Shown one piece after another: positions 10,451 through 37,385 of a DNA stretch of 64,000 bases. Where the stretch lies: contig NZ_JAUSVX010000006.1 of NCBI RefSeq assembly GCF_030814995.1, positions 248,001-312,000 of the forward strand, given 5' to 3'. A model generated the notes under the pieces. It searched no databases. It was not told where the DNA came from and worked only from the letters and a program-made list of their open reading frames with translations. Each line of letters starts with the position of its first letter. Position 1 is the stretch's first letter. The position numbers and the translations under genes are program-made. This stretch comes from Labrys wisconsinensis (GTDB taxonomy: Bacteria; Pseudomonadota; Alphaproteobacteria; Rhizobiales; Labraceae).

Positions 10451-10480
10451 TGCAGCTTCATCACGACAGGGACGCATGAC

Positions 10481-12405: not shown

Positions 12406-12417
12406 ATTGTTAACAAT
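12406..12417. promoter_or_regulatory. GntR-type operator between regulator and aldolase genes
   Basis: Perfect 12-bp palindrome ATTGTTAACAAT in the 193-base region between the GntR gene (minus strand) and the aldolase operon (plus strand). A further TTGACAA half-site follows at 12422-12428. The near-identical sequence at 7461-7472 marks both as sites of one regulator, most simply the adjacent GntR protein. Confidence 0.75.
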
Positions 12418-12527
12418 ATGATTGACAAAATCTGGATCGCCGATACTCTCCGTGCGAGGGAATGGCGCCGCAGCGCGACCTGCGGCGGCGGCCTCCCGCA
12501 AAGTCAGCCTTGCCGAGGGGGAGCAGA

Positions 12528-13316: not shown

Positions 13317-13416
13317 AGCAAAGCAGCGTTTGGACGGAAACGCTGCTTTGCTCTCTCTCCTTGTTTCGACGCGTCTTTGCGATGCTTGGCGAGTCCGCCA
13401 AATCGCAAAACGCTTT
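13315..13416. repeat. Double-hairpin intergenic palindromic repeat, copy 2
   Basis: The first hairpin is perfect: 17-base arms AGAGCAAAGCAGCGTTT / AAACGCTGCTTTGCTCT with a 6-base loop (13315-13354). A linker TTGTTTCGACGCGTC follows, then a second hairpin TTTGCGAT..TTGGCG / CGCCAA..ATCGCAAA (about 13376-13410). Same order, orientation and linker as the copy at 446-550. Its first two bases supply the AG of the aldolase stop codon, so the repeat abuts that gene exactly. Confidence 0.88.
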
Positions 13417-13473
13417 AGCCGCATCGACATCGGATCGCCCGAGTGCGGGCCTCGACTATCCCGGCAGGCAGAC

Positions 13474-14658: not shown

Positions 14659-14705
14659 GCGCCGGGCGGGAGCCGGGCACGGGGACAGAGGCTGGAGAGG
14701 AACGC

Positions 14706-15704: not shown

Positions 15705-15729
15705 CGCGCCGGCGTGGGCGATCTCCCGC

Positions 15730-16665
15730 CTAACCGTCCATCAGCGTGCCCACGTGCACCGCGGTCGATCCGGCCAGCGCCGTGAGGTCGTAGCCGCCCT
15801 CCAGCACCGAGACCAGGCGCCCGCGTGCCGTCTTCTCGGCCGCCGCCATCAGCTGCTCGGTGGCCCAGGCATAGTCGGCCTCGACCAGGTTGAGGTTGGC
15901 CAGGGGATCGCGCCGATGCGCGTCGAAGCCGGCCGAGACGATGACGAGGTCGGGCGCGAAGGCCAGGAGCCGCGGCAGCACCACCGCCTCCATGGCGGCG
16001 CGGAAGGCTTCGCCGCCGTCGCCGGCCCTGAGCGGCGCGTTGACGATGGTGCCGGCTTCGCCCGTCTCGCTGCGGGCGCCGGTGCCGGGATAGAGCGGCA
16101 TCTCGTGGGTCGAGGCGTAGAGCACGCTCGGATCGGTCCAGAAGATCGCCTGGGTGCCGTTGCCGTGATGCACGTCGAAATCCATGATCGCCACGCGCTC
16201 CAGCCCGTGGGCGGCCTGGGCGTGGCGGGCGGCGATGGCGGCATTGTTGAAGAAGCAGAAGCCCATGGCGCGTGCCGGCTCGGCATGGTGGCCGGGCGGG
16301 CGGGAGGCGGAGAAGGCGTTCTTCGCCCGGCCGGCCATGACCGTGTCGACCGCCAGCATGGCGCCGCCCGCCGCGTGCAGGGCGGCGGCGAAGGTGCCGG
16401 GCGACATCGCCGTGTCGGAATCGATGGCGACGAAGCCCTCGTCGTCGTGCGGGTTGAGCCGGCGCAGCGCCTCGACATGGGCGCGGGGATGGCAGCGGAT
16501 GATCGCCTCGAGCGGCGCCTCGGGCGCCTCCAGCCGCAGGAGATCGTCGAAGGCGGGGTCCGCCAGGGTCTGCTCCACCGCCAGGATGCGGTCGATCCGC
16601 TCGGGATGCCCGCGCGGGGTCTCGTGCCTGGTATAGGCGGGGTGGGAGACGAGCAGCGTGGTCAT
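15730..16665 (-). CDS. Histone deacetylase-family (acetylpolyamine amidohydrolase-like) protein
   Basis: A 311-residue zinc hydrolase of the HDAC/AcuC/AphA superfamily. Diagnostic residues: RPPGHHAE (catalytic His pair), GFCFFNNAAIAA, IMDFDVHHGNGTQAIF (zinc Asp and His), SAGFDAHRRDPL (zinc Asp) and LEGGYD near the end. In bacteria these remove acetyl groups from small amines or proteins. The SDR and acyl-CoA dehydrogenase genes precede it on the same strand (98-base gap to the SDR), so a common transcript is possible but not tight. Substrate not determinable. Confidence 0.9.
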   Translation of the reverse strand: MTTLLVSHPAYTRHETPRGHPERIDRILAVEQTLADPAFDDLLRLEAPEAPLEAIIRCHPRAHVEALRRLNPHDDEGFVAIDSDTAMSPGTFAAALHAAGGAMLAVDTVMAGRAKNAFSASRPPGHHAEPARAMGFCFFNNAAIAARHAQAAHGLERVAIMDFDVHHGNGTQAIFWTDPSVLYASTHEMPLYPGTGARSETGEAGTIVNAPLRAGDGGEAFRAAMEAVVLPRLLAFAPDLVIVSAGFDAHRRDPLANLNLVEADYAWATEQLMAAAEKTARGRLVSVLEGGYDLTALAGSTAVHVGTLMDG

Positions 16666-16763
16666 GCGGAATCCTGCGCTGGCATCGGGCTCGTGGACGA
16701 CTTGCCGCCGCAGCGGCCAACGGCGGATCGGATCGGCCCGGACGGGCGCCCGAGCCGCGCGGC

Positions 16764-17633
16764 TCACCCGGCGTCCATGCCCTCGCCGAGGACGACGCCC
16801 GGCGGCGGCACGCTGTCGTCGGGCACGAAGAAATCGGGCGCCAGCATCTGGCTCGGATCGACCCGGTACTGCTCGAAGTCGGTAACGCCTTCGCGTGCCA
16901 GAAATGTGTCGTCGATCAGAAAGTTCCCGGAGAAGGCCGCGGGCTTGCCGAAGATGCGCCAGGCCGCGTCGGCGATGATCTCGGGCTTGCGCGAGCGGCG
17001 CATCAGCGCTTCGCCCCCGAGGACGTTCCGGATCGCCGCCGTGGCGATGGTGGTGCGCGGCCACAGCGCGTTGACCGCGACCTTGCCGCGCAATTCGCCG
17101 GCCAGGCCCAGCACCACCAGGCTCATGCCGAACTTGGCCATGGAATAGGCGGTGTGCGGCGCGAACCACTTTTCCTGCATGTCGAGCGGCGGCGACAGCA
17201 TCAGGATGTGCGGGTTGGGCGCGGCGAGGAGATGGGGGATCGCCAGCTTGGAGACCAGGAAGGTGCCGCGCGCATTGATCTGGTGCATCAGGTCGAAGCG
17301 CTTCATCTCGGTGTCGGCCGCCTTGGTCATCGAGATGGCGGAGGCGTTGTTGACCACGATGTCGATGCCGCCGAAGGCCTGCGCCGTCTGGTCCAGGGCC
17401 TTCTTGACGGTCTCCTCGTCGCGCACGTCGACCACCAGCGGCAGCGCCCTGCCGCCCGCCCGCTCGATCGCCTCGGCGGCGGAATGGATCGTGCCCTCGA
17501 GCTTGGGGTGCGGCGTGTCGGTCTTGGCGGCGATGGCGATGTTGGCGCCGTCCCTGGCCGCCCGGAGGGCGATGGCGAGGCCGATCCCCCGCGAGGCGCC
17601 GGTGATGAACAGGGTCTTGTGGGCGAGCGACAT
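16764..17633 (-). CDS. Short-chain dehydrogenase/reductase (HSDL2-like)
   Basis: A 289-residue NAD(P)-binding SDR. Cofactor motif TGASRGIG (residues 11-18), VVNNASAI (about 93), catalytic YSMAK (about 162) and a serine in MLSPPLD. The extension after residue 200 (FGKPAAFSGNFLIDDTFLAREGV) resembles the hydroxysteroid-dehydrogenase-like-2 group, which acts on lipid-type substrates. It is downstream of the acyl-CoA dehydrogenase on the same strand (60-base gap), consistent with a fatty-acid-like oxidation pair. Precise substrate unknown. Confidence 0.88.
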   Translation of the reverse strand: MSLAHKTLFITGASRGIGLAIALRAARDGANIAIAAKTDTPHPKLEGTIHSAAEAIERAGGRALPLVVDVRDEETVKKALDQTAQAFGGIDIVVNNASAISMTKAADTEMKRFDLMHQINARGTFLVSKLAIPHLLAAPNPHILMLSPPLDMQEKWFAPHTAYSMAKFGMSLVVLGLAGELRGKVAVNALWPRTTIATAAIRNVLGGEALMRRSRKPEIIADAAWRIFGKPAAFSGNFLIDDTFLAREGVTDFEQYRVDPSQMLAPDFFVPDDSVPPPGVVLGEGMDAG

Positions 17634-17693
17634 GGCGGATCCGCGATGGTGGTGCTGAGGCTTCTTACACGAAAGGCTGGGCGTCGGCGCGGC

Positions 17694-19481
17694 TCAGGCA
17701 GCCGCGCCGAACCCCGCCCCAAGCGCATCCGCCCCCTCCATCACGCTGGCGGCCAGGCCCGTGGCGCCGGCGGCGATCTGGCCGGCGAAGAAGCGGGCGG
17801 TGTCGACGCGCAGGGTATGGGCGGCGTCCTCCGCCCCCTCCGCCTGGGCCCGCGCCGCGGCTTCGGCCTCGCGCGCCAGGGCGACGCCGCCGGCCGCCAC
17901 GGCGAACAGCCGGAGATAGGGCGTGGCGCTGGCGAGCGCGTCGGCCGGGCGGGAGCTCGCCGCGTGCAGCATCCACTCCGTCGTGCTCTCCAGCGCGTCG
18001 ACCGCCGAGGCCAGCGGCCGCAGCACCGCGGCGGAGAGATGGTTGGTGCGGGCGATGGTCGCCAGCGACTGGCGCAGCTCGCCGATGGTCCGGCGCACCA
18101 CCGCGCCGTCCTCCAGCGACAGCTTGCGCATGGCAAGGTCGATCGCCTGGATGCCGTTGGTGCCTTCGTAGATGGCGGTGATGCGGGCATCGCGCATCCA
18201 TTGCGCCGCGCCGGTCTCCTCGATGAAGCCGGCGCCGCCGTGCACCTGCACGCCGAGCGAGGCGACCTCGTTGGCGATGTCGGTGGCGAAGGCCTTGGCC
18301 ACCGGCGTGAGCAGCGCGGCCCGATGCTGCGCCGCCTGCCGGGCCGCCTCGTCCGCGCCGGTGCGCGCCCGGTCGAGCGCCTCGGCCACCTGGTAGCACA
18401 GGCCCCGCGCCGCCACGGTCTTGGCCCGCATCTCCAGCAGCATGCGCCGCACGTCGGGATGCTCGACGATCGGGCTCATGCCCTCGCCGGTCCAGCCCGG
18501 CGCCTTGCCCTGGCGCCGCTCGCGCGCATAGGACAAGGCCTGCTGATAGGCGCCCTCGGCCGCGGCCACGCCCTGCAGGCCGACCTGCAGGCGCGCGTTG
18601 TTCATCATCGTGAACATGCAGGCGAGGCCCTTGTGCTCCTCGCCGATCAGCCAGCCGGTGGCCCCGCCCTTGTCGCCATAGGTCATGGTGCAGGTCGGCG
18701 AGCCGTGGATGCCGAGCTTGCGCTCGACGCCGGCGCAGGCGACGTCGTTGCGCTCGCCGAGGCTCCCGTCCTCGTTCACCAGGAGCTTCGGCACCAGGAA
18801 CAGCGAGATGCCGCGCGTGCCGGCCGGCGCATCCGGCAGGCGGGCCAGCACGAGGTGGACGATGTTGTCGGTGAGGTCATGCTCGCCATAGGTGATGAAG
18901 ATCTTGGTGCCGGTGATCCGGTAGCTGCCGTCCTCCCGGCGCTCGGCGCGGGCGCGCAGCGCCCCGAGGTCGGAGCCCGCCTGCGGCTCGGTGAGGTTCA
19001 TCGTGCCGGTCCATGTTCCCTTGACCAGCTTGTCCAGATAGGTCTTGCGCAGCGTCTCGGAAGCGTGCGTCGTCAGCGCCTCCACCGCGCCCATGGTCAG
19101 GAGCGGCGCCAGGCCGAAGGCGAGGGAGGCGCCGTTCCACATCTCCGCGCAGGCGGCGTTGAGCAGCAGCGGCAGGCCCTGGCCGCCGAGCTCGGCCGGG
19201 GCGGCGAGGGCGTTCCAACCGCCTTCGGTCCAGGCCTCGTAGGCCTCGCGCCAGCCGGGCGCGGTCGTGACCTTGCCGTCCGCGAACGTCACCCCCGCCG
19301 TGTCCCCGACGCGGCGCAGCGGCGCGAGCTTGTCGGTGGCGAAGCGCCCGGCCTCCTCCAGGATGGCATCGACCGTGTCGGCGCTCGCATCCGGGAACAG
19401 CCCGTCCGCGGCCAGGGCGTCGAGGCCGGCGACATGGCGCAGGGAGAAGGCGATGTCGGCGATGGGCGCGCGATAGCTCAT
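17694..19481 (-). CDS. Acyl-CoA dehydrogenase, DmdC-like long form
   Basis: A 595-residue FAD flavoenzyme, longer than ordinary acyl-CoA dehydrogenases (about 380). Residues 1-150 are the N-terminal helical domain, the middle domain has MNLTEPQAGSDLGALRARAE and GTKIFITYGEHDL for FAD binding, and the C-terminal domain has QVHGGAGFIEETGAAQWMRDARI and IYEGTNGIQAIDL. An extra helical C-terminus (from about 470) is the feature of the 3-methylmercaptopropionyl-CoA dehydrogenase (DmdC)/AidB-type long group. It catalyses alpha-beta dehydrogenation of an acyl-CoA. Start at 19481 begins MSYRAPIADI, matching the family's N-terminus. DMSP-pathway partners dmdB and dmdD are absent, so the native acyl group is uncertain. 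Confidence 0.9.
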   Translation of the reverse strand: MSYRAPIADIAFSLRHVAGLDALAADGLFPDASADTVDAILEEAGRFATDKLAPLRRVGDTAGVTFADGKVTTAPGWREAYEAWTEGGWNALAAPAELGGQGLPLLLNAACAEMWNGASLAFGLAPLLTMGAVEALTTHASETLRKTYLDKLVKGTWTGTMNLTEPQAGSDLGALRARAERREDGSYRITGTKIFITYGEHDLTDNIVHLVLARLPDAPAGTRGISLFLVPKLLVNEDGSLGERNDVACAGVERKLGIHGSPTCTMTYGDKGGATGWLIGEEHKGLACMFTMMNNARLQVGLQGVAAAEGAYQQALSYARERRQGKAPGWTGEGMSPIVEHPDVRRMLLEMRAKTVAARGLCYQVAEALDRARTGADEAARQAAQHRAALLTPVAKAFATDIANEVASLGVQVHGGAGFIEETGAAQWMRDARITAIYEGTNGIQAIDLAMRKLSLEDGAVVRRTIGELRQSLATIARTNHLSAAVLRPLASAVDALESTTEWMLHAASSRPADALASATPYLRLFAVAAGGVALAREAEAAARAQAEGAEDAAHTLRVDTARFFAGQIAAGATGLAASVMEGADALGAGFGAAA

Positions 19482-23118: not shown

Positions 23119-23142
23119 CGCGATATTCATTCGAATATAACG
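23119..23142. promoter_or_regulatory. ModE-type box upstream of aldehyde dehydrogenase
   Basis: CGCGATATT-CATTCG-AATATAACG, a 9-6-9 inverted repeat. The right arm matches the CGnTATATn half-site fully and the left has one mismatch. ModE sites in E. coli (CGCTATATA-N6-TATATAACG) have the same geometry. It ends 22 bases before the start codon, a position suited to repression by molybdate-bound ModE. Three similar sites occur in the window. Confidence 0.72.
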
Positions 23143-23164: not shown

Positions 23165-24664
23165 ATGACGATTGCGATCCGCAGGCCGGCCCTGGGCTCG
23201 GCCGCCACGGCCTTCATGGCCAAGAAGCATCAGATGCTGATCGACGGGAAATGGGTCGACGCCCGCAGCGGCGAGACCTTCTCGGTGGAGGATCCAGCCA
23301 CCAACGAGATCATCGCCCACGTGCCGGCCGGCGACAAGGCCGACATCGACCTCGCCGTGGCGGCCGCCCGCCGCGCCTTCGAGACCGGCCCCTGGTCGCG
23401 GATCTCGCCGAAGGACCGCCAGCGCCTGGTCTGGTCGCTCGGCGACCTCCTGGAGCGGCACGCCGACGAGCTGGCCGAGCTCGAGGCCCTCGACAACGGC
23501 AAGCCGGTGACCAATGCCCGCCGCGACGACGTGCAGGGCTCGATCGACATGTTCCGCTACATGGCGGGCTGGGCGACCCGGCTGAACGGCGAGCAGATCC
23601 AGGTCTCCACCCCCGGCAACTGGCACGTCTACAGCCTGCGCGAGCCGGTCGGCGTGGTCGGCCAGATCATTCCGTGGAACTTCCCGCTGATGATGGCGGC
23701 CTGGAAGCTGGCGCCGGCGCTGGCGGCGGGCTGCACCATCGTGCTCAAGCCGGCCGAGCAGACGCCTCTCTCGGCGCTGCGGGTGGGCGAGCTGGTCACC
23801 GAGGCGGGCTTCCCCGACGGCGTGCTCAACATCGTCACCGGCTTCGGCGAGACCGCGGGCGCGGCGCTGTCCCTGCACCCCGACGTCGACAAGGTCGCCT
23901 TCACCGGCTCCACCGAGGTCGGCAAGATCATCGTCCGGGCCGCTGCCGGCAACCTCAAGCGCGTGTCGCTGGAGCTCGGCGGCAAGTCGCCCGCCATCGT
24001 CTTCCCCGACGCCGACCTCGATCTGGCCGTCGCCGGCACGGCGAGCGCCATCTTCTACAACCAGGGCCAGTGCTGCACCGCCGGCTCGCGCCTCTTCGCC
24101 CACAAGTCGGTCTATGACCGGATCGTCGAGGGCGTCGCCGCCGAGGCCGGCAAGCTCAAGCTCGGCCACGGCCTCGACCCCAGCGTCACCCTCGGGCCGC
24201 TCGTCTCCCAGGAGCAGCACACCCGCGTCACCGGCTTCCTCGACTCCGGCCGCCAGGAAGGCGCCGAGATCGTGACCGGCGGCAAGGTCCATGGCAACCA
24301 GGGCTATTTCGTCGAGCCGACGGTGCTGGCGCAGACCAACCGCACCATGCGCGTGGTCCGCGAGGAGATCTTCGGGCCGGTCGTCTGCGTCCAGTCCTTC
24401 GACGACGACGACCTCGACGCCGTGGCCAGGTTCGCCAACGACACCGAGTACGGCCTGTCCTCGAGCGTGTGGACGCGCAACCTGAAGGTGGCGCACACCA
24501 TGGCCCGCAAGATCCGGGCCGGCACCGTGTGCATCAACACCCACAATTACGGCGATCCCGCCTGGCCCTTCGGCGGCTACAAGCAGTCCGGCTGGGGCCG
24601 CGAGATGGGCAAGGAAGTGATGGAGCACTACACCGAGACCAAGGCGGTCGCGGCCAGGCTCTGA
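23165..24664 (+). CDS. NAD(P)-dependent aldehyde dehydrogenase under ModE-type box
   Basis: A 499-residue ALDH. Catalytic landmarks: IPWNFPLMM (oxyanion Asn), KPAEQTPL, FTGSTEVGK, LELGGKSPAI (Glu about 275), NQGQCCTAGSR (catalytic Cys about 308), EEIFGPVV and FGGYKQSGWGRE. It resembles the class 1/2 and betaine-aldehyde-type enzymes, which need no metal. Start at 23165 has a strong GGAGGAGG site; an alternative ATG (23216) would give the plain family N-terminus. A ModE-type box lies directly upstream and a ModE gene lies 170 bases downstream. The inferred role is a molybdenum-free aldehyde oxidation enzyme used when molybdate is scarce, standing in for a Mo-dependent aldehyde oxidase; that replacement idea is not shown by sequence alone. 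Confidence 0.92.
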   Translation: MTIAIRRPALGSAATAFMAKKHQMLIDGKWVDARSGETFSVEDPATNEIIAHVPAGDKADIDLAVAAARRAFETGPWSRISPKDRQRLVWSLGDLLERHADELAELEALDNGKPVTNARRDDVQGSIDMFRYMAGWATRLNGEQIQVSTPGNWHVYSLREPVGVVGQIIPWNFPLMMAAWKLAPALAAGCTIVLKPAEQTPLSALRVGELVTEAGFPDGVLNIVTGFGETAGAALSLHPDVDKVAFTGSTEVGKIIVRAAAGNLKRVSLELGGKSPAIVFPDADLDLAVAGTASAIFYNQGQCCTAGSRLFAHKSVYDRIVEGVAAEAGKLKLGHGLDPSVTLGPLVSQEQHTRVTGFLDSGRQEGAEIVTGGKVHGNQGYFVEPTVLAQTNRTMRVVREEIFGPVVCVQSFDDDDLDAVARFANDTEYGLSSSVWTRNLKVAHTMARKIRAGTVCINTHNYGDPAWPFGGYKQSGWGREMGKEVMEHYTETKAVAARL

Positions 24665-24834: not shown

Positions 24835-25206
24835 ATGTCGACACGTGTCACGTTGCGCCTCGATTTCGACGAGGACCGCCGCCTCGGTCCCGGCAAGATC
24901 GCGCTGCTGGAGGCGATCCACCGGCACGGTTCCATCGCTGCGGCCGGCCGCGAGTTCGGCATGGCATATCGGCGCGCCTGGCTGCTCACCGACGAGCTCA
25001 ACCGCATGTTCGCCCAGCCCCTGGTGCACGCCAGGGGTGGCGGCAAGAACGGCGGCGGCGCCGAGCTGACCGACCTCGGCAGCAAGGTCGTCACCCTCTA
25101 TCGCGAGGCCGAGACCAAGGTCCGCGCGAGCGCCTCGAGCGAGATCGAGCGTCTGGAGCACTGCCTGTCCCTGCTGGCGCCTTCCGAGGCGGCCGGTGGC
25201 ACCTGA
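24835..25206 (+). CDS. modE: ModE-type molybdate regulator, DNA-binding domain only
   Basis: A 123-residue protein matching the N-terminal LysR-like winged helix-turn-helix of ModE (DFDEDRRLGPGKIALLEAIHRHGSIAAAGREFGMAYRRAWLLTDELN, then a wing with HARGGGKNGGGAELTDLG, and a C-terminal dimerisation helix). E. coli ModE carries two C-terminal molybdate-binding (Mop) domains; here they are missing, and a free Mop protein is encoded two genes downstream. This split form is known in other bacteria. Start at 24835 is chosen; an ATG at 24796 would add 13 residues. Its natural targets are the four 9-6-9 boxes in the window, including the one before modA. Confidence 0.85.
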   Translation: MSTRVTLRLDFDEDRRLGPGKIALLEAIHRHGSIAAAGREFGMAYRRAWLLTDELNRMFAQPLVHARGGGKNGGGAELTDLGSKVVTLYREAETKVRASASSEIERLEHCLSLLAPSEAAGGT

Positions 25207-25256: not shown

Positions 25257-25280
25257 CGCTATATCCAACAAGGTATTACG
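25257..25280. promoter_or_regulatory. ModE-type box upstream of modA
   Basis: CGCTATATC-CAACAA-GGTATTACG: the left arm matches the CGnTATATn half-site perfectly, the right is degenerate (two mismatches). Molybdate-bound ModE represses modA in E. coli from a site of this geometry. It ends only two bases before the first candidate start, so it occupies the ribosome-site region. Transcription probably starts inside or right beside it, or the true start lies further downstream. Confidence 0.7.
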
Positions 25281-25282: not shown

Positions 25283-26062
25283 ATGTCCATGATCAGGGTC
25301 AGTCGCCGCTGGATCTCCGCGGCTTTCGTCGCGCTGGCGCTCACCGCTCCGGCGCGGGCGGCCGAGACCGTGACGGTGTTCGCTGCGGCGAGCCTCAAGA
25401 ACGCCCTCGACGACGCCGCTGCCGCGTTCAAGACCAAGACCGGCATCGAGATCAAGGCGAGCTATGCCGCTTCCTCAGCCCTGGTGAAGCAGATCGAGCA
25501 GGGCGCTCCGGCAGACCTCTTCGCTTCCGCCGACACCAACTGGATGGACTATGCCGACAAGCACGGCCTGATCCAGCAGCAGAGCCGCATCCATCTCCTC
25601 GGCAACGCGCTGGTGGTGATCGCGCCGAAGGATTCCAAGGTCGAGAGCCTGCCGCTGACGACCGCCGATTTCGACAAGGCCCTCGGCGACGGCAAATGGG
25701 CGACGGGCACCGTGACCAGCGTGCCCTGCGGCATCTACGCCAAGCAATCCCTGACCAAGCTCGGCATGTGGTCGGCGGCAGAGCCGAAGCTCGCCCAGAC
25801 CGACAATGTCCGCGCCGCCCTGCAATTCGTCTCGCGCGGCGAGGCGGCGCTCGGTGTCGTCTATCAGACCGACGCCAACGCCGACCCGGGCGTGAAGGTG
25901 GTGGCGACCTTTCCGGAAGACACGCACGAGCCGATCGTCTATCCCTTTGCCCTGACGAAGGAGGCGAAGGGCGAGGCCCCGGGCAAGTTCCTCGCCTTCC
26001 TCGCCAGCGACGAGGCCAAGCCGTTCTTCGAGAAGCAGGGCTTCGTCCTCCTGAAGCGTTGA
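25283..26062 (+). CDS. modA: Molybdate ABC transporter substrate-binding protein
   Basis: A 259-residue periplasmic protein with a signal peptide (about residues 1-27, ending ARAAE). The mature part has the ModA landmarks: [17 protein letters not shown] (oxyanion Ser), [21 protein letters not shown] (second Ser), a [11 protein letters not shown] segment where most relatives have VPAG, and VVYQTDA (binding Tyr). It binds molybdate or tungstate. Two in-frame starts are possible, 25283 and 25289; the ModE box ends two bases above the first, so 25289 is credible. No modB or modC follows; instead come mop and trmO. The transporter's membrane parts must be elsewhere. Confidence 0.9.
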
Positions 26063-26077: not shown

Positions 26078-26284
26078 GTGAAGCTGAGCGCGCGCAACCA
26101 GATCAAGGGCACCATCAAGTCCGTCACCAAGGGCCAGACCACGGCGCATGTGCAGCTCGAGGTCAACGGCACCGTCATCACCGCCTCGATCACCAACGAG
26201 GCGGTGGATGCGCTGAACCTCAAGGTCGGCCAGAGCGCCTATGCCGTGATCAAGGCCTCCGACGTGATGGTCGCGATCGACTGA
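26078..26284 (+). CDS. mop: Mop-type molbindin (TOBE domain protein)
   Basis: A 68-residue single TOBE/Mop-domain protein: [30 protein letters not shown], then [28 protein letters not shown], exactly the molbindin pattern. Such proteins assemble as hexamers and bind several molybdate ions in the cytoplasm, acting as a store or as the sensor half missing from a split ModE. Translation starts at GTG 26078 after GAGGAGAG, 15 bases after modA. This is strong evidence that the operon concerns molybdate. It may supply the molybdate-sensing function for the truncated ModE, which is inference. Confidence 0.9.
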
Positions 26285-26286: not shown

Positions 26287-26787
26287 ATGGTGCGGCTGAA
26301 CGAGATCCGCGCCGGCGAGGTCGCGGTCGAGCCGCCGGCGCCGACCGATGCGGGGCTGGTCTTCATCGGCCGCATCCGCACGCCCTGGAGCTCGCGGCTC
26401 GACTGCCCGCGCCAGGGCCGCATCGACGGCCCGACCTGCCGCATCGAGATCTTCCAGCCCTGGGTCCCGGCGCTGGCCGGGATCCAGGCGTTCGGCCGTC
26501 TGGAGGTGCTCTACTGGCTGCACGAGTCGCGCCGCGATCTCGTGCGCCAGAGCCCCGCGAATGACGGCACGACCCGCGGCACCTTCGCCCTGCGCTCGCC
26601 GGTGCGCCCGAACCCGATCGGCACCTCCTTGGTCGGCCTCGTCGCCGTCGACGGCGCCACGCTCCTGGTGCGCGGCCTCGACTGCCTCGACGGCACGCCG
26701 CTGATCGACCTCAAGCCCGACCGCAGCCTCTTCACCCCGCTCGCCCCACCGCAGCCCGGCGACTTCGAGGTGGGGGACGCCGTCTGA
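26287..26787 (+). CDS. trmO: tRNA (N6-threonylcarbamoyladenosine(37)-N6)-methyltransferase TrmO-like
   Basis: A 166-residue TsaA/YaeB/TrmO-family protein. Landmarks: [41 protein letters not shown] (SAM-site motif) and [15 protein letters not shown] (usually DIKPY). The beta-barrel core domain uses SAM to methylate t6A37 to m6t6A37 in tRNA-Thr(GGU); E. coli TrmO has an extra C-terminal domain absent here. Start 26287 is two bases after the mop stop, so the gene is in the molybdate operon. Its link to molybdate is not obvious. Some TsaA homologues are annotated as adjacent to metal-cofactor genes, so an alternative SAM-dependent role cannot be excluded. Confidence 0.85.
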
Positions 26788-27793: not shown

Positions 27794-28999
27794 TCAGACC
27801 GCCTTCTTGAACTTCGCCGCCTCCTCCGAGCCCCCGGTGGCGTTGCCGGCGCTGTAGGAGCGCGCGCCGACGCCGGCGAGCTTGCCGCCGTCGACGATCA
27901 GGTATTCGTCCCGGATCGGCCGGCCCTCGAACCAGCATTCCAGGATCTCGCGGGTCCCGGCGGCATAGCGCGCCTGCGCCGAGAGCGAGGTGCCGGAGAT
28001 GTGCGGCGTCATGCCGTGATGCGGCATGCTGCGCCAGGGATGGTCGGCCGGCGGCGGCTGCGGGAACCAGACGTCGCCGGCATAGCCGGCGAGCTGGCCG
28101 TCCTCCAGCGCCTTGGCCACGGCGGTGCGGTCGCAGATCTTGCCGCGCGCCGTGTTCACGAGATAGGCGCCGCGCTTCATCCTGGCGAGCATCCCGGCGT
28201 CGAACAGGTTCTCGGTCTCCGGGTGCAGCGGGCAATTGATGGTGACGACGTCGCAGACCTCGACCATGTCCTCCACCGTCGGGTGCCAGGTGAGGTTCAG
28301 CTCCTTCTCCACTGCCTCCGGCAGGCGATGCCGGTCGAAATAATGCAGGTGCATGTCGAAGGGCTTCAGCCGGCGCAGGACGGCGAGGCCGATGCGGCCG
28401 GCGGCGACCGTCCCGACATGCATGCCCTCGACGTCGTAGGAGCGGGCGACGCAATCGGCGATGTTCCAGCCGCCCTTCACCACCCATTGGTAGGAGGGGA
28501 TGTAGTTGCGCACCAGCCCGAGGATCATCATCACCACGTGCTCGGAGACGCTGATCGAGTTGCAGAACGTCACCTCGGCGACGGTGATGCCGCGGTCGAT
28601 GGCGGCCTGCAGGTCGACATGGTCGGAACCGATGCCGGCGGTCAGCGCCAGCTTCAGCTTCGGTGCCCTGGCGATGCGCTCGGCGGTGAGGTAGGCCGGC
28701 CAGAACGGCTGCGAGATCACCACCTCGGCGTCGTGCAGTTCCCGTTCGAGCACCGAATCCGGCCCGTCCTTGCTCGACGTCACCACCAGCGTGTGACCGT
28801 TGGCCTCCAGATATTGGCGCAGGCCGAGCTCGCCGGAGACGCTGCCGAGCAGCGCGCCGGGCTGGAAGTCGAGTCCCCTGGGCGTCGGCAGGGTCTGGCC
28901 GTCGGGATAGCGCTCGATCCTCGGCAGATCATCGCGCGCATAGGTCTTCGGATAGCCGTCGACCGGATCGTCGTACAGAACACAAACGACCTTCGCCAT
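27794..28999 (-). CDS. fdh: NAD-dependent formate dehydrogenase, metal-free
   Basis: A 401-residue D-2-hydroxyacid-dehydrogenase-type formate dehydrogenase, the same length as and very similar to the Pseudomonas sp. 101 enzyme as I recall it. Landmarks: GHTLVVTSSKDGPDSV, PFWPAYLTAERIA, the cofactor motif VAAGRIGLAVLRRL, NTARGKICDR (catalytic Arg), MTPHISGTSLSAQARY (catalytic His) and the characteristic EEAAKFKKAV end. It oxidises formate to CO2 with NAD+ and needs no molybdenum or tungsten, unlike the common multi-subunit dehydrogenases. Downstream is the HPP gene; upstream on the same strand a LysR gene with a ModE-type box. The 252-base gap to it holds no other gene and no obvious ModE box. 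Confidence 0.96.
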   Translation of the reverse strand: MAKVVCVLYDDPVDGYPKTYARDDLPRIERYPDGQTLPTPRGLDFQPGALLGSVSGELGLRQYLEANGHTLVVTSSKDGPDSVLERELHDAEVVISQPFWPAYLTAERIARAPKLKLALTAGIGSDHVDLQAAIDRGITVAEVTFCNSISVSEHVVMMILGLVRNYIPSYQWVVKGGWNIADCVARSYDVEGMHVGTVAAGRIGLAVLRRLKPFDMHLHYFDRHRLPEAVEKELNLTWHPTVEDMVEVCDVVTINCPLHPETENLFDAGMLARMKRGAYLVNTARGKICDRTAVAKALEDGQLAGYAGDVWFPQPPPADHPWRSMPHHGMTPHISGTSLSAQARYAAGTREILECWFEGRPIRDEYLIVDGGKLAGVGARSYSAGNATGGSEEAAKFKKAV

Positions 29000-29251: not shown

Positions 29252-30169
29252 TCAGGCGCCGACGCGGGCCGCGGTGAAGGCGGCCTCGATGTCGGCGGTC
29301 AGCGCCGCGGCCATCAGCGCATCCGCCATGGGGGAGCGGGGGTGGCGATCGGAGAGGACGAGGCCGATCGACTGGCTGTGGACGGGATCGATCAGGCGGA
29401 CGGCGGTGAGGTCCGGGGCGCCGCCGAAGACGTGGAAGAACGTGTGCGGCACGATGCTGGTCCAGGTGCCCAGGCGCAGGTGCGAGCCGATGCCGAGGAA
29501 GGAGTTGCTGACCACCGCCGGGCGGATCCGGACGCCGACCGACCGCGCCACCTTGTCGATGATGCGGCGGTTCTGCATGTCCTCGCTGAGCAGGCAGAGC
29601 GGCTGTGCCGCCGCCTCGCGCCAGCCGAGCGTGACCCGTCCCGCCAGCGGGTGGTCGCGGCGCGCGACGAAGACGTAGCGCTCGCGGTACAGCGGCACGC
29701 GGCGGACGCGCTCCAGCGGCTCGTTCTCCAGATAGGTCAGGCCGCCGTCGAGCTCGAAGGCGTCGAGGCCCTGCTGGATGGCGCGCGAGGTCATCGAGCG
29801 GATGTCCACCGTCGCGCCCGGATGTGCCGCGCAGAAGCGCGCCGTCAGGAAGGCCACCGACGGCATCGCCGCCGGGATGACCCCGAGACGGAGGACGCCG
29901 GTCAGGCCCTGGCGCGCGCCGGTGAGGTCGTCGCGCAGGTTGTCGTAGTCGGTGAGGATTTGCCGGCCCCAGGCGAGCACCTTCTCGCCCTCGGCGGTGA
30001 GCCCGACGAAGCGATGATCGCGGACCACGAGCCGGGCATCCAGGTCCTCCTCCAGCTTGCGGATCGCGGCCGACAGGGTCGGCTGGGCGACGTTGCAGGC
30101 CAAGGCCGCCTTGGCGAAGTGACGCTCGCGCGCCAGGGTGACGAAATAGGAGAGGTGGCGGATGAGCAT
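29252..30169 (-). CDS. LysR-family regulator upstream of formate dehydrogenase
   Basis: A 305-residue LysR regulator: winged helix-turn-helix at residues 1-60 (HLSYFVTLARERHFAKAALACNVAQPTLSAAIRKLEEDL) and a periplasmic-binding-protein-like effector domain (about 90-290). It is transcribed in the same direction as the formate dehydrogenase, 252 bases upstream of it, unlike the usual divergent layout. Position makes it the likely activator of the fdh-HPP unit, with formate or a one-carbon compound as candidate ligand. A ModE-type box lies 24-47 bases above its start, suggesting that molybdate controls the regulator rather than the enzyme directly. Confidence 0.88.
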   Translation of the reverse strand: MLIRHLSYFVTLARERHFAKAALACNVAQPTLSAAIRKLEEDLDARLVVRDHRFVGLTAEGEKVLAWGRQILTDYDNLRDDLTGARQGLTGVLRLGVIPAAMPSVAFLTARFCAAHPGATVDIRSMTSRAIQQGLDAFELDGGLTYLENEPLERVRRVPLYRERYVFVARRDHPLAGRVTLGWREAAAQPLCLLSEDMQNRRIIDKVARSVGVRIRPAVVSNSFLGIGSHLRLGTWTSIVPHTFFHVFGGAPDLTAVRLIDPVHSQSIGLVLSDRHPRSPMADALMAAALTADIEAAFTAARVGA

Positions 30170-30192: not shown

Positions 30193-30216
30193 CGCTATTC
30201 CCTTTAGAATATAGCG
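30193..30216. promoter_or_regulatory. ModE-type box upstream of the LysR gene
   Basis: CGCTATTCC-CTTTAG-AATATAGCG: the right arm, read on the other strand as CGCTATATT, is a full CGnTATATn half-site; the left has two mismatches. Same 9-6-9 geometry as the other three sites. It lies 23 bases above the LysR start, where binding would block transcription of the regulator presumed to drive the metal-free formate dehydrogenase. Confidence 0.65.
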
Positions 30217-30978: not shown

Positions 30979-31425
30979 TCATGCCATGCCGGCGGCAGCC
31001 CGGCGAGCGCGCCGGGCGGGCGGCGGTGCCGGCTCGTGTCCCTGGGACAGGTCTTCGAGGATCGGGCAATGCGGCCGGCCGTCGCCGTGGCAATGGGCGG
31101 CGAGATGGCGCAGCGTCCGCGCCATCTCCTGCAGCGCCCGCATCTTGGCCTCCAGCTCGCCGACATGCGCCAGGGCGATGCGCTTGACATCGGCGCTGGC
31201 CCGCGAGCGGTCGCTCCACAGCTTCAGGAGCTCCGCCATCTGCTCGACGGAGAAGCCGAGGTCGCGGGCGCGTCGGATGAAGCGCAGCGTGTGCACGTCG
31301 CTGTCCGCATAGACCCGGTATCCCGCCGCGGTGCGGGCGGCGCCCGGCATCAGCCCGATCGACTCGTAGTAGCGGATCATCTTGGCCGAGACGCCGGAGG
31401 CCTTCGCCGCTTCGCCGATGTTCAT
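30979..31425 (-). CDS. cueR: Copper-responsive MerR-family regulator
   Basis: A 148-residue MerR regulator: helix-turn-helix MNIGEAAKASGVSAKMIRYYESIGL, a wing (AAGYRVYADSDVHTLRFIRRARDLGF), a long dimerisation helix and the metal-binding loop CHGDGRPHC (a C-x7-C spacing as in CueR for Cu(I)). A poorly structured Pro/Arg-rich tail follows. The gene is 24 bases downstream of copA in the same operon, and its likely operators are the MerR-type promoters at 33973 and 34349. It would activate copA and copZ by distorting the 19-base spacer when Cu(I), Ag(I) or Au(I) binds. Confidence 0.92.
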   Translation of the reverse strand: MNIGEAAKASGVSAKMIRYYESIGLMPGAARTAAGYRVYADSDVHTLRFIRRARDLGFSVEQMAELLKLWSDRSRASADVKRIALAHVGELEAKMRALQEMARTLRHLAAHCHGDGRPHCPILEDLSQGHEPAPPPARRARRAAAGMA

Positions 31426-31449
31426 GACCGTCTTCCCTCCCGCTCGCTC

Positions 31450-33939
<2,490 letters not shown>

Positions 33940-33972
33940 GGCGCAGGATCCCGTTCGGTTCGACTGCAGAGA

Positions 33973-34003
33973 TAGGTAGGGCTTCCCATCATGGGAAGGT
34001 CAA
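33973..34003 (-). promoter_or_regulatory. CueR-type promoter of copA
   Basis: Read on the minus strand: a -35 TTGACC (34003-33998), a 19-base spacer and a -10 TACCTA (33978-33973). The overlong spacer contains the near-perfect palindrome CTTCCCATGATGGGAAG (33998-33982). A 19-base spacer with such a dyad is the hallmark of MerR-family activation. It lies 33 bases above the copA start. Confidence 0.85.
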
Positions 34004-34064
34004 GGGCCGACTTGCGGACGGTGCGGCGGGCGGGTTGCCGTCATCGCACGGGATCCTCGACGTC

Positions 34065-34206
34065 ATGGACGGGCTCGTCCCGTCCATCCACGCGAACGCG
34101 ACAGTGGCAATATCCCCCCATCACGGCCGGCGCTCTTCTCTCGGCTCCTTGTGTTCGCTACGAAATCGAACGATTTCGTCGGGATGGGCGGATCAAGTCC
34201 GCCCAT
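34065..34206. repeat. Mosaic of palindromic repeat units between copA and copZ
   Basis: Three perfect hairpins in a row: ATGGACGGG-N5-CCCGTCCAT (34065-34087), ACGAAATCG-AA-CGATTTCGT (34160-34179) and ATGGGCGGA-N5-TCCGCCCAT (34184-34206). The first and third are related (ATGG-CGG cores with a 5-base loop) and resemble intergenic palindromes common in Hyphomicrobiales as I recall them. They occupy most of the 469-base gap between the copper promoters; I see no gene in it. Confidence 0.7.
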
Positions 34207-34291
34207 GACGGTCGCGGTTGGTGTGTCCGTCGCGCGCGCTCCTTCGTCGTGGCTGGAGTCTCATCGGCCCGCCCGTCATGGCTGCATAGGT

Positions 34292-34313
34292 TTGTCTATG
34301 GTTGTATAGACAA
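34292..34313. promoter_or_regulatory. Inverted repeat upstream of copZ
   Basis: TTGTCTAT-GGTTGT-ATAGACAA, perfect 8-bp arms with a 6-base centre, 36 bases above the CueR-type -35 of copZ. An overlapping dyad CATAG-N6-CTATG (34285-34300) is also present. It looks like a dimer operator of the GntR or TetR size. No matching regulator gene is adjacent, so the binder and purpose are unknown. Confidence 0.4.
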
Positions 34314-34348
34314 GCTGTGCCCGCGAGCCGCGTCGCTGCCGAAAGCCC

Positions 34349-34379
34349 TTGACCTTCCAACCGTTGGAAGGCCTACGAC
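34349..34379 (+). promoter_or_regulatory. CueR-type promoter of copZ
   Basis: -35 TTGACC (34349-34354), a 19-base spacer and a -10 TACGAC (34374-34379). The spacer holds the perfect palindrome CCTTCCAA-CCG-TTGGAAGG (34353-34371). Geometry and sequence mirror the copA promoter and fit activation by the CueR protein encoded at 30979. It lies 30 bases before the copZ start. Confidence 0.87.
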
Positions 34380-34408
34380 TCGCTCGACAGCGTTCGAGGA
34401 GAAGACAG

Positions 34409-34612
34409 ATGCTGAAGCTGAAGGTTCCGGAGATGAGCTGCGGCCATTGCGCGGCCACCATCGAGAAGGCGGTCAGGAGCGTCGATCCCGCGGCGCGGCT
34501 GGCCATCGACGTCGGCGCGCAGACCGTCACGGTCGAGACGCGGGCCGAGCCGGCCGCAGTTCGCGAGGCGATCCGCTCCGCCGGCTACGAGACCGAGGCG
34601 CTGGCCGCCTGA
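34409..34612 (+). CDS. copZ: CopZ-type copper chaperone
   Basis: A 67-residue heavy-metal-associated domain protein: LKVPEMSCGHCAATIEKAV carries the Cu(I)-binding CxxC motif (Cys 11 and 14). The remainder (IDVGAQTVTVETRAEPAAVREAIRSAGYE) completes the beta-alpha-beta-beta-alpha-beta fold. It delivers Cu(I) to CopA and to CueR. Start at 34409 follows GAGGAGAAG. It is driven by the CueR-type promoter at 34349 and is divergent from copA. It converges on the molybdate-linked DUF2478 gene. Confidence 0.92.
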   Translation: MLKLKVPEMSCGHCAATIEKAVRSVDPAARLAIDVGAQTVTVETRAEPAAVREAIRSAGYETEALAA

Positions 34613-34622: not shown

Positions 34623-35183
34623 TCACTTGAAGCGTTCGCAGAAGGTCGGGGCCGCGCCGGCGCCCGAGGGCGGACGCCCCAGCGAGCGCCACCAGCGCTC
34701 CAGGCTCTCGCGCCGCGGCTGCAGCCGCACCGCGAGGCCCTGCGTCGTCGCCAGCCAGTCGGGAAACAACGCCTCGGGCACGGCGATCACCACGGGAATG
34801 TCGCGCTCGATCGCCTCGGCCAGGACGTCGGTGAGCCCGGCCCCGGCTGCTTCCTGCGATCCCCAGCGGTTGAGCGCGACGAGATCGGGCTGCCGCTTCA
34901 GCGCCTCGATGAGCCGGACGCCGATGCCCTGCAGGGCCGTGCCGCAAGCCGCGGCCGGCTCCCGGTCGGGACGGCGGTCGTCGTCGGGGATCAGGCGGAG
35001 GTCGACCGAGCCGTCGAAGCCGGATCGGGCCGGCGCCCGCTGCTGCACCACGCCGACGGCGTCGTAGCCGAGGCCGAGCAGCCCGCGGACGAAGGCCTGC
35101 AGCAGCGGGTCAGGCGCATCGCCAGGGGCGTAGACCATGGCGGCCACGTCGCATTCGCCGTGAAATCGCGGACCCCCGGTCAT
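34623..35183 (-). CDS. DUF2478-family protein
   Basis: A 186-residue cytoplasmic protein of the DUF2478 family, which has a nucleotide-binding-like fold. Visible blocks: AAMVYAPGDAPDPLLQAFVRGLLGLGYDAVGVVQQ, VDLRLIPDD, LVALNRWGSQEAAGAGLTDVLAEAIERDIPVVIAVPEALFPDWLATTQGLA. No function is established; the family is seen near molybdate-uptake and molybdoenzyme genes. Here it is the third gene of the DUF2325 / ModA-like / DUF2478 operon headed by a ModE-type box, nine bases after the ModA-like gene. A role in handling molybdate or its cofactor is inferred from that position only. Confidence 0.78.
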   Translation of the reverse strand: MTGGPRFHGECDVAAMVYAPGDAPDPLLQAFVRGLLGLGYDAVGVVQQRAPARSGFDGSVDLRLIPDDDRRPDREPAAACGTALQGIGVRLIEALKRQPDLVALNRWGSQEAAGAGLTDVLAEAIERDIPVVIAVPEALFPDWLATTQGLAVRLQPRRESLERWWRSLGRPPSGAGAAPTFCERFK

Positions 35184-35192
35184 GACAGCGCC

Positions 35193-35993
35193 TCAGGGCT
35201 GTGCCGGCAGGCCGATCGCCGCGAAGCCAAAGCGCGCCAGCGTCGCCTGGCCCTCGGGCGAGAGGATCGCCAGGGCGAGCCCGACCGCGGCCGGCCTGTC
35301 CAGCGCCGTGATCGCCAGGCCGTATTCGGGGCCGGTGGCATAGGCGTCGGGCACCGGGATCGCCGCGATGCCGGGCGTGTCCTTGCGCCGCTGCTCGGCC
35401 CCGCTGCAATAGCCCATCATCACATTGATCGTGCCCTTGGCGAAGGCGGCGGCGATCGGGTTGGGGTTGGCCGGATCGGGCGCGGCGCTGCCGCCGACGA
35501 TCCTCTGCGCCTTGGCGTCGAGCGTCGCGAAAGCGCCGGGGCGCGCCTTGTCGATCAGGCGGAACATCGCCCAGGTATAGTCGCCGCCGGGATCGGCCTT
35601 GGGGGTCGAGGTGCCGAGCTTCACCGCCGGATCGGCCAGGCGCTCGGCGAAGTTGGCCGCCGTCAGCCCGGCCTCGGGCGTGGCGAAGGCGCAGAGGCGG
35701 TTGCGCGTGAACATCACCACGGCGGCGGCCCGCCCGTCGCGGCGCAGCTTCAGGGCGTGGCCTATGTCGGCCGAGGCGAAGAGATCGACCTTGTCGCCGG
35801 CCTCGATCTTGTCGCGCATCAGGCCGGAAGGGCCGAAGGCGGTGCTGACATGGACGCCGGTCCTGGCGCCGTAGTCGGCGGCGATCGCCGTGAGGGCATC
35901 GGTGAGGCTGCCGGCGCCGTAGAGCACCACGTCCTCGGCGCGCGCCTGGGCGGTGAAGACGAGAAGCAGCAGGCCGGCGAGAAGGCGGGTCAT
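35193..35993 (-). CDS. ModA-like periplasmic binding protein (second molybdate-type SBP)
   Basis: A 266-residue exported binding protein (signal peptide residues 1-19 ending ARAED). The mature domain begins VVLYGAGSLTDALTAIAADYGARTG with SGLMRDKIEAGDKVDLFASAD, so it has the ModA pattern. Later segments (GTSTPKADPGGDYTWAMFRLIDKARPG, INVMMGYCSGAEQRRKDTPG) differ from ModA at 25283; the VVYQTDA binding Tyr segment is replaced. It may bind molybdate, tungstate or another oxyanion with different affinity. It is in one operon with DUF2325 (17 bases before) and DUF2478 (9 bases after). As with modA, no permease or ATPase gene follows. Confidence 0.78.
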   Translation of the reverse strand: MTRLLAGLLLLVFTAQARAEDVVLYGAGSLTDALTAIAADYGARTGVHVSTAFGPSGLMRDKIEAGDKVDLFASADIGHALKLRRDGRAAAVVMFTRNRLCAFATPEAGLTAANFAERLADPAVKLGTSTPKADPGGDYTWAMFRLIDKARPGAFATLDAKAQRIVGGSAAPDPANPNPIAAAFAKGTINVMMGYCSGAEQRRKDTPGIAAIPVPDAYATGPEYGLAITALDRPAAVGLALAILSPEGQATLARFGFAAIGLPAQP

Positions 35994-36010
35994 GGCGTGG
36001 TGCTCGTGCG

Positions 36011-37258
36011 TCAGAGGGCCTGCAGCGTCTGCGACAGCGCGCCGCCGCCGGCGAGGGCGGCGAGGAAGCTGGCGAGGCTGGCGCTGCGCAGCGGCACGAA
36101 CGGCTTGCCGGCCTCGCGGCAGACCTTCTTCACCTGGCCGGCGGCGGTGTGGCTGATGCAGTCCACGGGAAAGAAGGCGGCCTGCGCGCGGGCGACCAGC
36201 CCGGGCAGCAGCGCGGCATTGTCCTCCATGCCGCCGTCATGGGCGAGCAGCGCCCCGCCGCGCGCGGCGACGAGCGCCTGCATCTGGTCGACCACCCGGG
36301 GGCGGCCGCCGACATAGAGCAGCGTGCGGCCGTCGAGGTCCGCGACGGCGCCCGCCGTCGCCTCGGCGGCGGGGAGCAGGGCTTCCAGCGCCGCGATCTC
36401 CGCCTGCAGCCCGGCCTCGCGGGCTTCGAGCGCGGCGGCGTGCCGTTCGGCCTCCCCAGCCTGGGCCTCGGCGGCCTGCAGGCGGGCGGCCAGGGTGGCG
36501 GCGCGGGCTCGTTCCGTCTCGAGCCGCTGATGGGTCGCGGCGGCCGCCCCGGCGTCTGCGGCCGGGGGCGGCGCCTGCATCTCGCGCCGGCCGAGCTCGG
36601 CTTCCAGGCTCTCGACCTTGCGCAGCAGCGCTTCGCGCGCCTCGGCGGCGGCCTGGAGGCGCTGCTCCTGCCGGGCGATCTTCTCGTCGCGTTCGCCGAT
36701 CTCGCGCTCCAGCCGACTGAGGCGCGCGAGGTCGAGCCGGTTGGACGAGCCGATCATGTGCGAGAGCATGTGCACCTCGCCGAACACCTCCTGCACCAGC
36801 GCCCGGTCGGTGGCGGGGTGGGTGAGCACGGCCCAATAGGCGCCGGGGATCTCGCCCTGATCGAGCGCCTGGCGCCAGAGCGCCCGCACCGCGTCCACCG
36901 TTCCAGCCTTGGCGAAGCGCCGGATTGCCGCGTCATGGCGCTTGTCCAGCGCCTTGTGCAGCATCTTGCCGGCGAGGTCGTGCCGGCCGGCGGCGGTGAC
37001 GCCGCGCCCGTGCAGGGCATGATCGGTCGCGGTCCTGGCATCGGCCTGGCCGAGGCGGACGAACACCTGGCGCAGCTCCGCGGCGGTGAGGCAGGTGCCG
37101 ACGATCGAGCAGTGCAGGTTGGCGGCGATGTCCCAGATCCTGCAGCGGCGCTTGCCCTCGGCATCGGTGGCGACGAGCGGCGGGGCGGTCCAGGGCAGGA
37201 CCGGCGCCGCGACGTCGCTGCGGGGGCTGGAGCGGTCCAGGATCGAGAGGCCCGGCAT
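36011..37258 (-). CDS. DUF2325-containing protein with long coiled coil
   Basis: A 415-residue protein. An N-terminal region (about 1-165) has Cys/His residues (KRRCRIWDIAANLHCSIVGTC, VTAAGRHDLAGKMLHKALDKRHD) suited to metal or cofactor binding. Residues about 172-310 form a continuous coiled coil rich in Glu/Ala/Arg. The C-terminal domain (about 312-400) is DUF2325: TLLYVGGRPRVVDQMQALVAARGG, LLAHDGGMEDN and FPVDCISHTAAGQVKKVCREAGKPFVPL. DUF2325 is of unknown function and found near molybdenum, iron and nif-type genes. It heads the operon with the ModA-like and DUF2478 genes, and its start codon lies 12 bases below a perfect ModE-type box, so molybdate control is likely. Confidence 0.8.
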   Translation of the reverse strand: MPGLSILDRSSPRSDVAAPVLPWTAPPLVATDAEGKRRCRIWDIAANLHCSIVGTCLTAAELRQVFVRLGQADARTATDHALHGRGVTAAGRHDLAGKMLHKALDKRHDAAIRRFAKAGTVDAVRALWRQALDQGEIPGAYWAVLTHPATDRALVQEVFGEVHMLSHMIGSSNRLDLARLSRLEREIGERDEKIARQEQRLQAAAEAREALLRKVESLEAELGRREMQAPPPAADAGAAAATHQRLETERARAATLAARLQAAEAQAGEAERHAAALEAREAGLQAEIAALEALLPAAEATAGAVADLDGRTLLYVGGRPRVVDQMQALVAARGGALLAHDGGMEDNAALLPGLVARAQAAFFPVDCISHTAAGQVKKVCREAGKPFVPLRSASLASFLAALAGGGALSQTLQAL

Positions 37259-37270
37259 GTCGTGCTCGCG

Positions 37271-37294
37271 CGTTATATTCGAATAAATATAACG
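37271..37294. promoter_or_regulatory. Perfect ModE-type box upstream of the DUF2325 operon
   Basis: CGTTATATT-CGAATA-AATATAACG, a perfect 9-bp inverted repeat with a 6-base centre, the best of the four ModE-type sites in the window. It matches the CGnTATATn half-site on both sides and the known ModE spacing. It lies 12 bases above the DUF2325 start, implying a short leader and repression when molybdate is bound to ModE. Confidence 0.82.
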
Positions 37295-37330: not shown

Positions 37331-37356
37331 AAAAAGCCCCCGCCGGTGGCGGGGGC
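37331..37356 (-). terminator. Rho-independent terminator of ald
   Basis: On the minus strand: GCCCCCGCC-ACC-GGCGGGGGC followed by TTTTT (from AAAAA at 37331-37335). It starts 29 bases after the alanine dehydrogenase stop codon and isolates that gene from the DUF2325 operon below. Confidence 0.92.
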
Positions 37357-37385
37357 TTGCTGAAGGTCGTGGGGGCAGCCGAAGC

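Follow-up and report, generated by a model that had tools for sequence, protein, structure and literature searches.

What does an operon with two uncharacterised proteins do behind a predicted binding site of the molybdate regulator ModE? The question arises from a stretch of 64,000 nucleotides of Labrys wisconsinensis (contig NZ_JAUSVX010000006.1, positions 248,001 to 312,000), hereafter the window. Its minus strand encodes, in order of transcription, a DUF2325 protein (36011-37258, 415 amino acids; PF10087 55.5 bits, cut-off 33.6), a ModA-like binding protein (35193-35993, 266 amino acids; PF13531 129.9 bits, cut-off 25) and a DUF2478 protein (34623-35183, 186 amino acids; PF10649 102.9 bits, cut-off 22.3). 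An earlier note on this DNA had reported a perfect ModE-type box before three genes spaced 9-17 bases apart, and had proposed high-affinity oxyanion capture or delivery under molybdate shortage as a role for both DUF families. The spacing holds, the gaps being 17 bp between the DUF2325 and ModA-like genes and 9 bp between the ModA-like and DUF2478 genes. We suggest a different division of labour, which we regard as somewhat probable: a ModE-repressed operon for molybdenum scarcity, consisting of a spare binding protein, a pseudo-NTPase serving as cofactor adaptor, and a Cys/His protein from a wider metal-supply family.

The predicted palindromic operator, CGTTATAT-N8-ATATAACG, is located at 37271-37294 on the minus strand, 12 bp from the DUF2325 start codon, and reads CGTTATAT-TCGAATAA-ATATAACG with its spacer letters. 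It agrees with the core CGNTATAT-N8-ATATANCG in 14 of 14 fixed letters, and is the sole exact match to CGNTATAT-N7-9-ATATANCG in the genome (8,926,997 bases; 0 in the backwards control), which bears out the earlier note. The E. coli consensus printed in PMC545781, ATCGNTATATA-N6-TATATANCGAT, is longer, with 20 fixed letters, and by our count the site matches only 14 of them; the mismatching letters are the flanking AT/AT and the inner A/T. A looser pattern, CGNTAT-N12-ATANCG, has six matches in the genome, two of them inside the window, and none in the control. Further boxes in the window start at 23119 (one mismatch), 25257 (two) and 30193 (two). Ten first-order shuffles of the window, scanned with spacers of 6-10, yielded three matches with two mismatches and five with three, and the two-mismatch sites of the window are therefore weak when taken alone. 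A set of other fetched loci (1,159,171 bases) holds one N8 box with at most two mismatches, located before a TrmO-like/DUF2478 pair (L074).

Conservation of the box was followed among long DUF2325 homologues, found by protein similarity at E 1e-20; none was picked by its box. Matches were obtained in 6 of 385 genomes of the class and 44 of 397 genomes of the order, the window's own being included in both; no more than four candidates were scored for any genome, so that some homologues may have been missed. We fetched 40 loci, one of which (L145) is the same place as locus L101; L101 and L103 themselves entered via the DUF2478 search described below. Nine genomes that match the C-terminal part only are not among the loci fetched at length. 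Boxes with at most two mismatches were found in five of the 40 loci (L140 and L145-L148), these being also the five closest homologues of the set. The tree and the upstream test comprised 32 rows, namely the window, L101, L103 and 29 of the 40 fetched loci; near-copies and loci with frame trouble (L153-L155, L157, L158, L160, L161, L164, L166 and L178) were left out.

In the tree of these 32 proteins, the window, L101, L103, L140, L146, L147 and L148 form a single clade with a support of 100/100. Within 400 bp upstream of the DUF2325 gene, the best sites of the seven clade members have 0, 2, 0, 0, 2, 1 and 1 mismatches, against at least four in all 25 of the remaining 25 genes; shuffled upstream sequences reached two or fewer in 1 of 3,200 cases. 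A ModE box as a trait of the DUF2325 family at large was rejected. None of the 35 other fetched loci has one with at most two mismatches, which confines the ModE claim to one clade. Co-occurrence of the two families with ModE boxes, a check raised in the earlier note, was thus followed in part, and among the homologues examined the link to ModE is a trait of this one DUF2325 clade.

The neighbourhoods within the clade vary. In L101, from a metagenome-assembled genome of the Hyphomicrobiales, the order is DUF2325, DUF2478, binding protein, with boxes of two and zero mismatches; the binding protein is fused to an Oxidored_molyb domain, and its longest frame has the exact box within its 5' end. 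L146 has DUF2325, DUF2478, a binding-protein remnant and, 91 bp after a two-mismatch box, a moeA-like gene scoring 339 of 440 bits. The box of L140 is located between DUF2325 and a divergent mop, with an Oxidored_molyb gene next, and L148 has the order ModE-type gene, box, DUF2325. In L147, no recognised molybdenum gene stands beside the boxed DUF2325. The richest set is found in L103, from a metagenome-assembled genome of the Xanthobacteraceae, where positions 6582-17845 encode a ModE with TOBE domains, a TonB receptor, two DUF2478 proteins, a DUF4213/DUF364 protein and DUF2325, together with a ModE-type helix-turn-helix (HTH) protein, ModD and a transporter of the FecB/FecCD/ATPase type, so that DUF2478 and transporter genes share one locus. 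Boxes here have 0 to 3 mismatches (three at the TonB receptor, two at the FecB/FecCD transporter), and those with three may be due to chance. Judged by its named members L103 is a molybdenum neighbourhood, and the cluster possibly serves TonB-dependent molybdenum uptake.

A candidate regulator is encoded in the window itself. The protein at 24835-25206 (plus strand) is of the ModE HTH type, is devoid of TOBE domains and scores 86.6 bits with TIGR00637 (cut-off 98.5); the genome holds four more matches to this model, none above 31 bits. Matches of 82-95 bits, all under that cut-off, are present in all seven genomes of the boxed clade. With the boxes conserved and a ModE-type HTH match in each of these genomes, membership of the operon in a regulon that responds to molybdate seems well supported at the sequence level. 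ModE is seemingly split in the window, into the HTH protein and a separate small Mop (26078-26284). A two-mismatch box at 25257-25280 is followed on the plus strand by modA (25289-26062), this mop and a TrmO/TsaA-like gene (26287-26787). Both modB and modC score over their cut-offs and are located apart, on another contig, and a two-mismatch box overlaps the longest modB frame at its 5' end. Upstream of the operon box, a terminator-like hairpin (37334-37358, minus strand) separates the operon from an alanine dehydrogenase gene, a hint that the operon has its own promoter; the hairpin is weak, with one found against 0.4 expected from shuffles. In the interval between this gene and DUF2325, no promoter of the sigma-70 type could be recognised.

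The binding protein has diverged from ModA. It scores 49.1 of the 62.5 bits required by the ModA model TIGR01256, which the window's other ModA passes with 191.6 bits, and its best NCBIfam match is to a PRK03537-type variant for molybdate binding, at 232 of the 288 bits needed. The VVYQTDA segment, noted earlier as lost, is indeed missing, though its Tyr is retained. In Acinetobacter ModA, molybdate is contacted by S39, S66 and Y195 (PMC11734730); when the binding protein is aligned with L101 and the other ModA of the window, its S29, S56 and Y195 fall, in our reading, at the contact positions. The N-terminus looks signal-like by eye. The protein thus plausibly binds a group-6 oxyanion, and since modB and modC are located elsewhere and modB has a two-mismatch box, the orphan could feed that same permease.

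Members of the DUF2478 family occur in 16 of 60 relatives and in 25 of 289 genomes of the class, the window's own included, and 43 loci were fetched. Nitrate reductase, molybdopterin oxidoreductase, MoeA, MoaC/MoaB, MobA, ModE or DUF364 genes are present in 23 of the 43 and in none of 35 control loci, a count in which the gene-set queries were drawn from the same loci and each query-giving locus counts itself. Representatives, named by Pfam, adjoin nitrate reductase, formate dehydrogenase (FDH)-type, MoeA and MoaC genes. Ten long members were scanned, of which one is fused to MobA (L095, 6014-7150) and three are DUF4213-DUF364 fusions (L078, L088 and L099). In one further genome (G768, locus L197), DUF2478 comes directly after a ModE-type gene; nearby are, by eye, a ModA-like start and an FDH-like gene that resembles the window's NAD-formate dehydrogenase, and the stretch holds no box with at most two mismatches. 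In Pinisolibacter, a ModE with Mop domains adjoins a DUF2478 gene (L102/L075, 48% identical).

The NTP-binding-like fold proposed for DUF2478 is supported by a structure model (predicted local distance difference test, pLDDT, 83.1), which matches human NTPCR (2i3b; Z 12.5, 3.0 Å, 148 aligned) and Aquifex THEP1 (1ye8; Z 12.0, 3.2 Å, 142 aligned), the next row having Z 8.8. The Walker A motif is missing in all members aligned (0 of 37). With NTPase_1 (PF03266) the window protein reaches 11.8 of 23.9 bits, below the cut-off, and two relatives pass it (L088, 30.4; L083, 32.6). A profile search of solved structures gave two matches, the best at an unconvincing E of 0.056, and with Foldseek neither of the two DUF models had a match below an E of 0.001. 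Pfam and NCBIfam list no MobB family for the window protein, and the likeness to MobB comes from context and the one MobA fusion. The molybdenum genes in 23 of 43 loci, together with that fusion, speak for a role in cofactor handling rather than capture, and we infer as the most economical reading that DUF2478 is a non-hydrolysing adaptor.

The DUF2325 protein (model pLDDT 85.5) consists of a helical N-domain, two long helices at residues 152-228 and 236-294, and a C-terminal Rossmann-like DUF2325 domain. The Cys/His-rich N-terminal part described in the earlier note is strictly conserved, with C50, C56, H83, H163 and H167 invariant in 32 of 32 aligned proteins, and the coiled coil of about 140 residues corresponds to the two helices. 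In the C-domain, H340, D341, G342, G343, C367 and H370 are likewise invariant in 32 of 32; residues 309-415 resemble CheY/Rossmann-like folds (best Z 9.9), a fold that gives no function. A profile search of solved structures returned nine matches, nearly all coiled-coil-like and unconvincing (best E 0.0044).

Outside the boxed clade, DUF2325 is found beside genes for other metals. The nikR gene lies 32-90 bp away, with cbiM within 2 kb, in 9 of the 35 non-boxed loci, and a nickel-linked version can be made out (L154-L164; nikR in 9 of 11, with cbiM and DUF4198 near). In others, a Fur-family gene, imelysin, an ABM monooxygenase or a Bfd-like gene adjoins DUF2325. At least one iron-type or nickel gene is present within 6 kb in 29 of 35 loci (26 without the unnamed family X_L167) and in 1 of 43 control loci, a figure that is inflated because the queries come from the same loci; the control loci were counted with no distance limit, and ferritin-like, FeoB and ExbD genes were named by eye. 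The pattern TTTAGAA-N3-TTCTAAA, which we take to be the Irr box, occurs with at most three mismatches before 8 of the 35 genes against 0.05 expected, four of the eight being near-copies (f42) and two more coming from one genus (f28). A weak motif, TGA-N9-TCA, presumably that of RirA, is matched exactly at 11 of 35 loci against 2.8 expected. NikR-type sites (two patterns, one of them from PMC545781) were not above chance before the 35 genes, and the Fur-type pattern of PMC545781 was at most slightly above it.

These neighbourhoods tie the DUF2325 family to metal supply more widely, and the clade of the window to molybdenum. With members beside iron-type and nickel genes, the family is unlikely to have a role specific to oxyanions. 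Tentatively, and with some reserve, we propose that the long DUF2325 proteins, which combine an N-domain bearing HCSIIGTC and HMLSH with a coiled coil and the DUF2325 domain, form a single module for metal starvation, re-wired to varying metal regulators, with molybdenum in the ModE clade, nickel in the NikR/CbiM clade and iron in many others behind Irr/RirA/Fur-type control. The module would be a general factor for metal allocation or salvage, its metal set by the promoter or by small changes in the Cys/His site, and the window would hold the molybdenum version, paired with a cofactor pseudo-NTPase.

For the scarcity operon as a whole we envisage the following. When molybdate is plentiful, the ModE-type protein, perhaps with the separate Mop, would occupy 37271-37294 and block the promoter; when molybdate falls, all three genes would be made. 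The binding protein, presumably exported, would serve as a reserve ModA of diverged sequence and supply the scattered ModB-ModC permease. DUF2478, a presumably cytosolic pseudo-NTPase of the THEP1 fold, could hand over molybdate or molybdenum cofactor to enzymes in the manner of MobB. DUF2325 may be a cytosolic, probably dimeric coiled-coil protein with a metal site of Cys and His residues, and would help in allocating or salvaging metal that is scarce, as the molybdenum-regulated branch of a family otherwise located beside iron and nickel supply genes.

Several observations count against this reading. DUF2478 and DUF2325 are not always together: in L140, L147 and L148 the boxed DUF2325 has no adjoining DUF2478, one genome (G413) has no DUF2478 match, and the genomes of L101 (G673) and L103 (G777) have extra DUF2478 genes (L195 and L196) with no box in the fetched stretch. 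The Pinisolibacter DUF2478 has no box with at most three mismatches in its fetched stretch, and 20 of the 43 DUF2478 loci are without any of the molybdenum genes sought. A search of the window genome's four congeners at E 1e-20 gave no DUF2325 match; four candidates were scored per congener. On the side of the regulator, the best ModE match falls below the family cut-off in each of the seven genomes, and the local ModE-type protein has no molybdate-binding domains. For the binding protein 10 NCBIfam models are listed, and it stays under the cut-off of every one; no permease adjoins it. Finally, loss of MorABC in Rhodobacter capsulatus left Mo-nitrogenase activity unaffected (PMC6925177).

Two further boxes in the window precede genes of other kinds. 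The one-mismatch ModE-like box at 23119-23142 lies 22 bp before an aldehyde dehydrogenase gene (23165-24664), whose product is a possible molybdenum-free substitute made in molybdenum scarcity. A two-mismatch box at 30193-30216 precedes a LysR gene (29252-30169) that adjoins a gene for a molybdenum-free, NAD-dependent formate dehydrogenase (27797-28999; 718.6 bits, cut-off 329); the pair may form an isozyme switch. Nitrogen fixation was considered as the source of the molybdenum demand and dropped, nifH being over its cut-off in one of eight genomes, not the window's own.

The role given in the earlier note can be extended to all three products acting in high-affinity capture or delivery, with DUF2325 and DUF2478 as oxyanion-binding partners of the periplasmic protein. 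A ModA-like protein in an operon behind a ModE box, and the same trio in L101, would fit this. However, neither DUF protein has a signal sequence visible by eye, and the relatives of the two are found in other company, DUF2325 in iron-type and nickel neighbourhoods and DUF2478 by nitrate reductase, FDH-type, MoeA and MoaC genes. We consider this explanation unlikely; what stands of the proposal is apparent membership in the regulon and a plausible group-6 oxyanion binding protein. A capture role common to both DUF families is not supported.

It is similarly improbable, in our estimate, that the operon, like the NAD-formate and aldehyde dehydrogenase genes behind the weaker boxes, serves to replace or shut down molybdoenzymes in molybdenum scarcity, the DUF proteins withdrawing or dismantling the molybdenum cofactor. 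The two boxes described above speak for such a switch, as does the cluster of a ModE-type gene, DUF2478, an FDH-like gene and a ModA-like start in G768. The two-mismatch box is, however, statistically weak, the binding protein indicates uptake, and there is no direct sign of an inhibitory function. More doubtful still is a loose collection in which the box is real, only the binding protein serves molybdenum metabolism and the DUF proteins are passengers. Gene order does vary, from DUF2325, binding protein, DUF2478 in the window to DUF2325, DUF2478, binding protein in L101, and DUF2325 occurs without the others in L147 and L148; but the box goes with DUF2325 in all seven cases, even where it stands alone, and DUF2478 keeps its molybdenum neighbours in more than half of its loci. 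The scarcity operon with its three separate tasks remains the explanation we prefer.

Two other gene groups of the window deserve mention. The TrmO/TsaA-like gene that follows modA and mop has a counterpart in L074, where such a gene (from about 5434, named by eye) stands between the box and DUF2478 (start 5948); it is a second candidate for a molybdenum-linked gene family. Beside the operon, 30979-34612 encodes a P-type ATPase that has two HMA domains and, judged by eye, a MerR-type regulator and a small HMA-like protein. This set looks like copper export, and a link to the operon is probably absent.

Two families without an assigned function thus gain a testable setting, DUF2478 as a putative cofactor-handling pseudo-NTPase and the long DUF2325 proteins as a putative metal-supply family spanning iron-type, nickel and molybdenum genes. 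To our knowledge few proteins are common to the regulons of different metals, and for this reason learning the job of DUF2325 could reveal how cells share out scarce metals.

Full-text searching, covering the best 8-20 titles per listing and few subscription papers, found no literature that ties DUF2325 or DUF2478 to ModE. DUF2478 appears as a table entry on Methanoperedens plasmids. Cj1384 of Campylobacter jejuni shares the DUF2325 domain name and is likened here by its description; its 104 amino acids leave no room for a coiled coil and an N-terminal Cys/His domain. It has seven cysteines, is regulated by PerR and is clustered with katA and a heme-trafficking gene (PMC9426514). The DUF2478 model shares the fold of THEP1 and NTPCR, but differs in having no Walker A (37 of 37) and in missing the NTPase_1 cut-off. 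Its MobA fusion recalls the MobB-type adaptors, MobB itself being known as a fusion to MoeA in NCBIfam (PRK14491). With ModA and the PRK03537 type, the binding protein shares the fold family, the signal-like segment seen by eye and the Ser-Ser-Tyr positions; unlike them it is an orphan under the ModA cut-offs, and its L101 version is fused to Oxidored_molyb.

There is also a likeness to the ModE regulon, represented by the E. coli box and by MopA/MopB of R. capsulatus, in which the same box core and spacing control molybdate-uptake genes. In R. capsulatus, PMC6925177 describes repression of morAB, mopA-modABC and anfA by MopA and MopB, and MorABC as an extra, molybdenum-repressed ModABC-like system. 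A lone ModE HTH has been noted in delta-proteobacteria, where sensing is unclear and the Desulfovibrio box differs (PMC545781). The genome of the window yielded no nifH scoring above its cut-off. Compared with the known regulon, the presumed regulator here consists of an HTH protein alone, Mop being a separate protein, and the boxed operon encodes two uncharacterised proteins and no permease.

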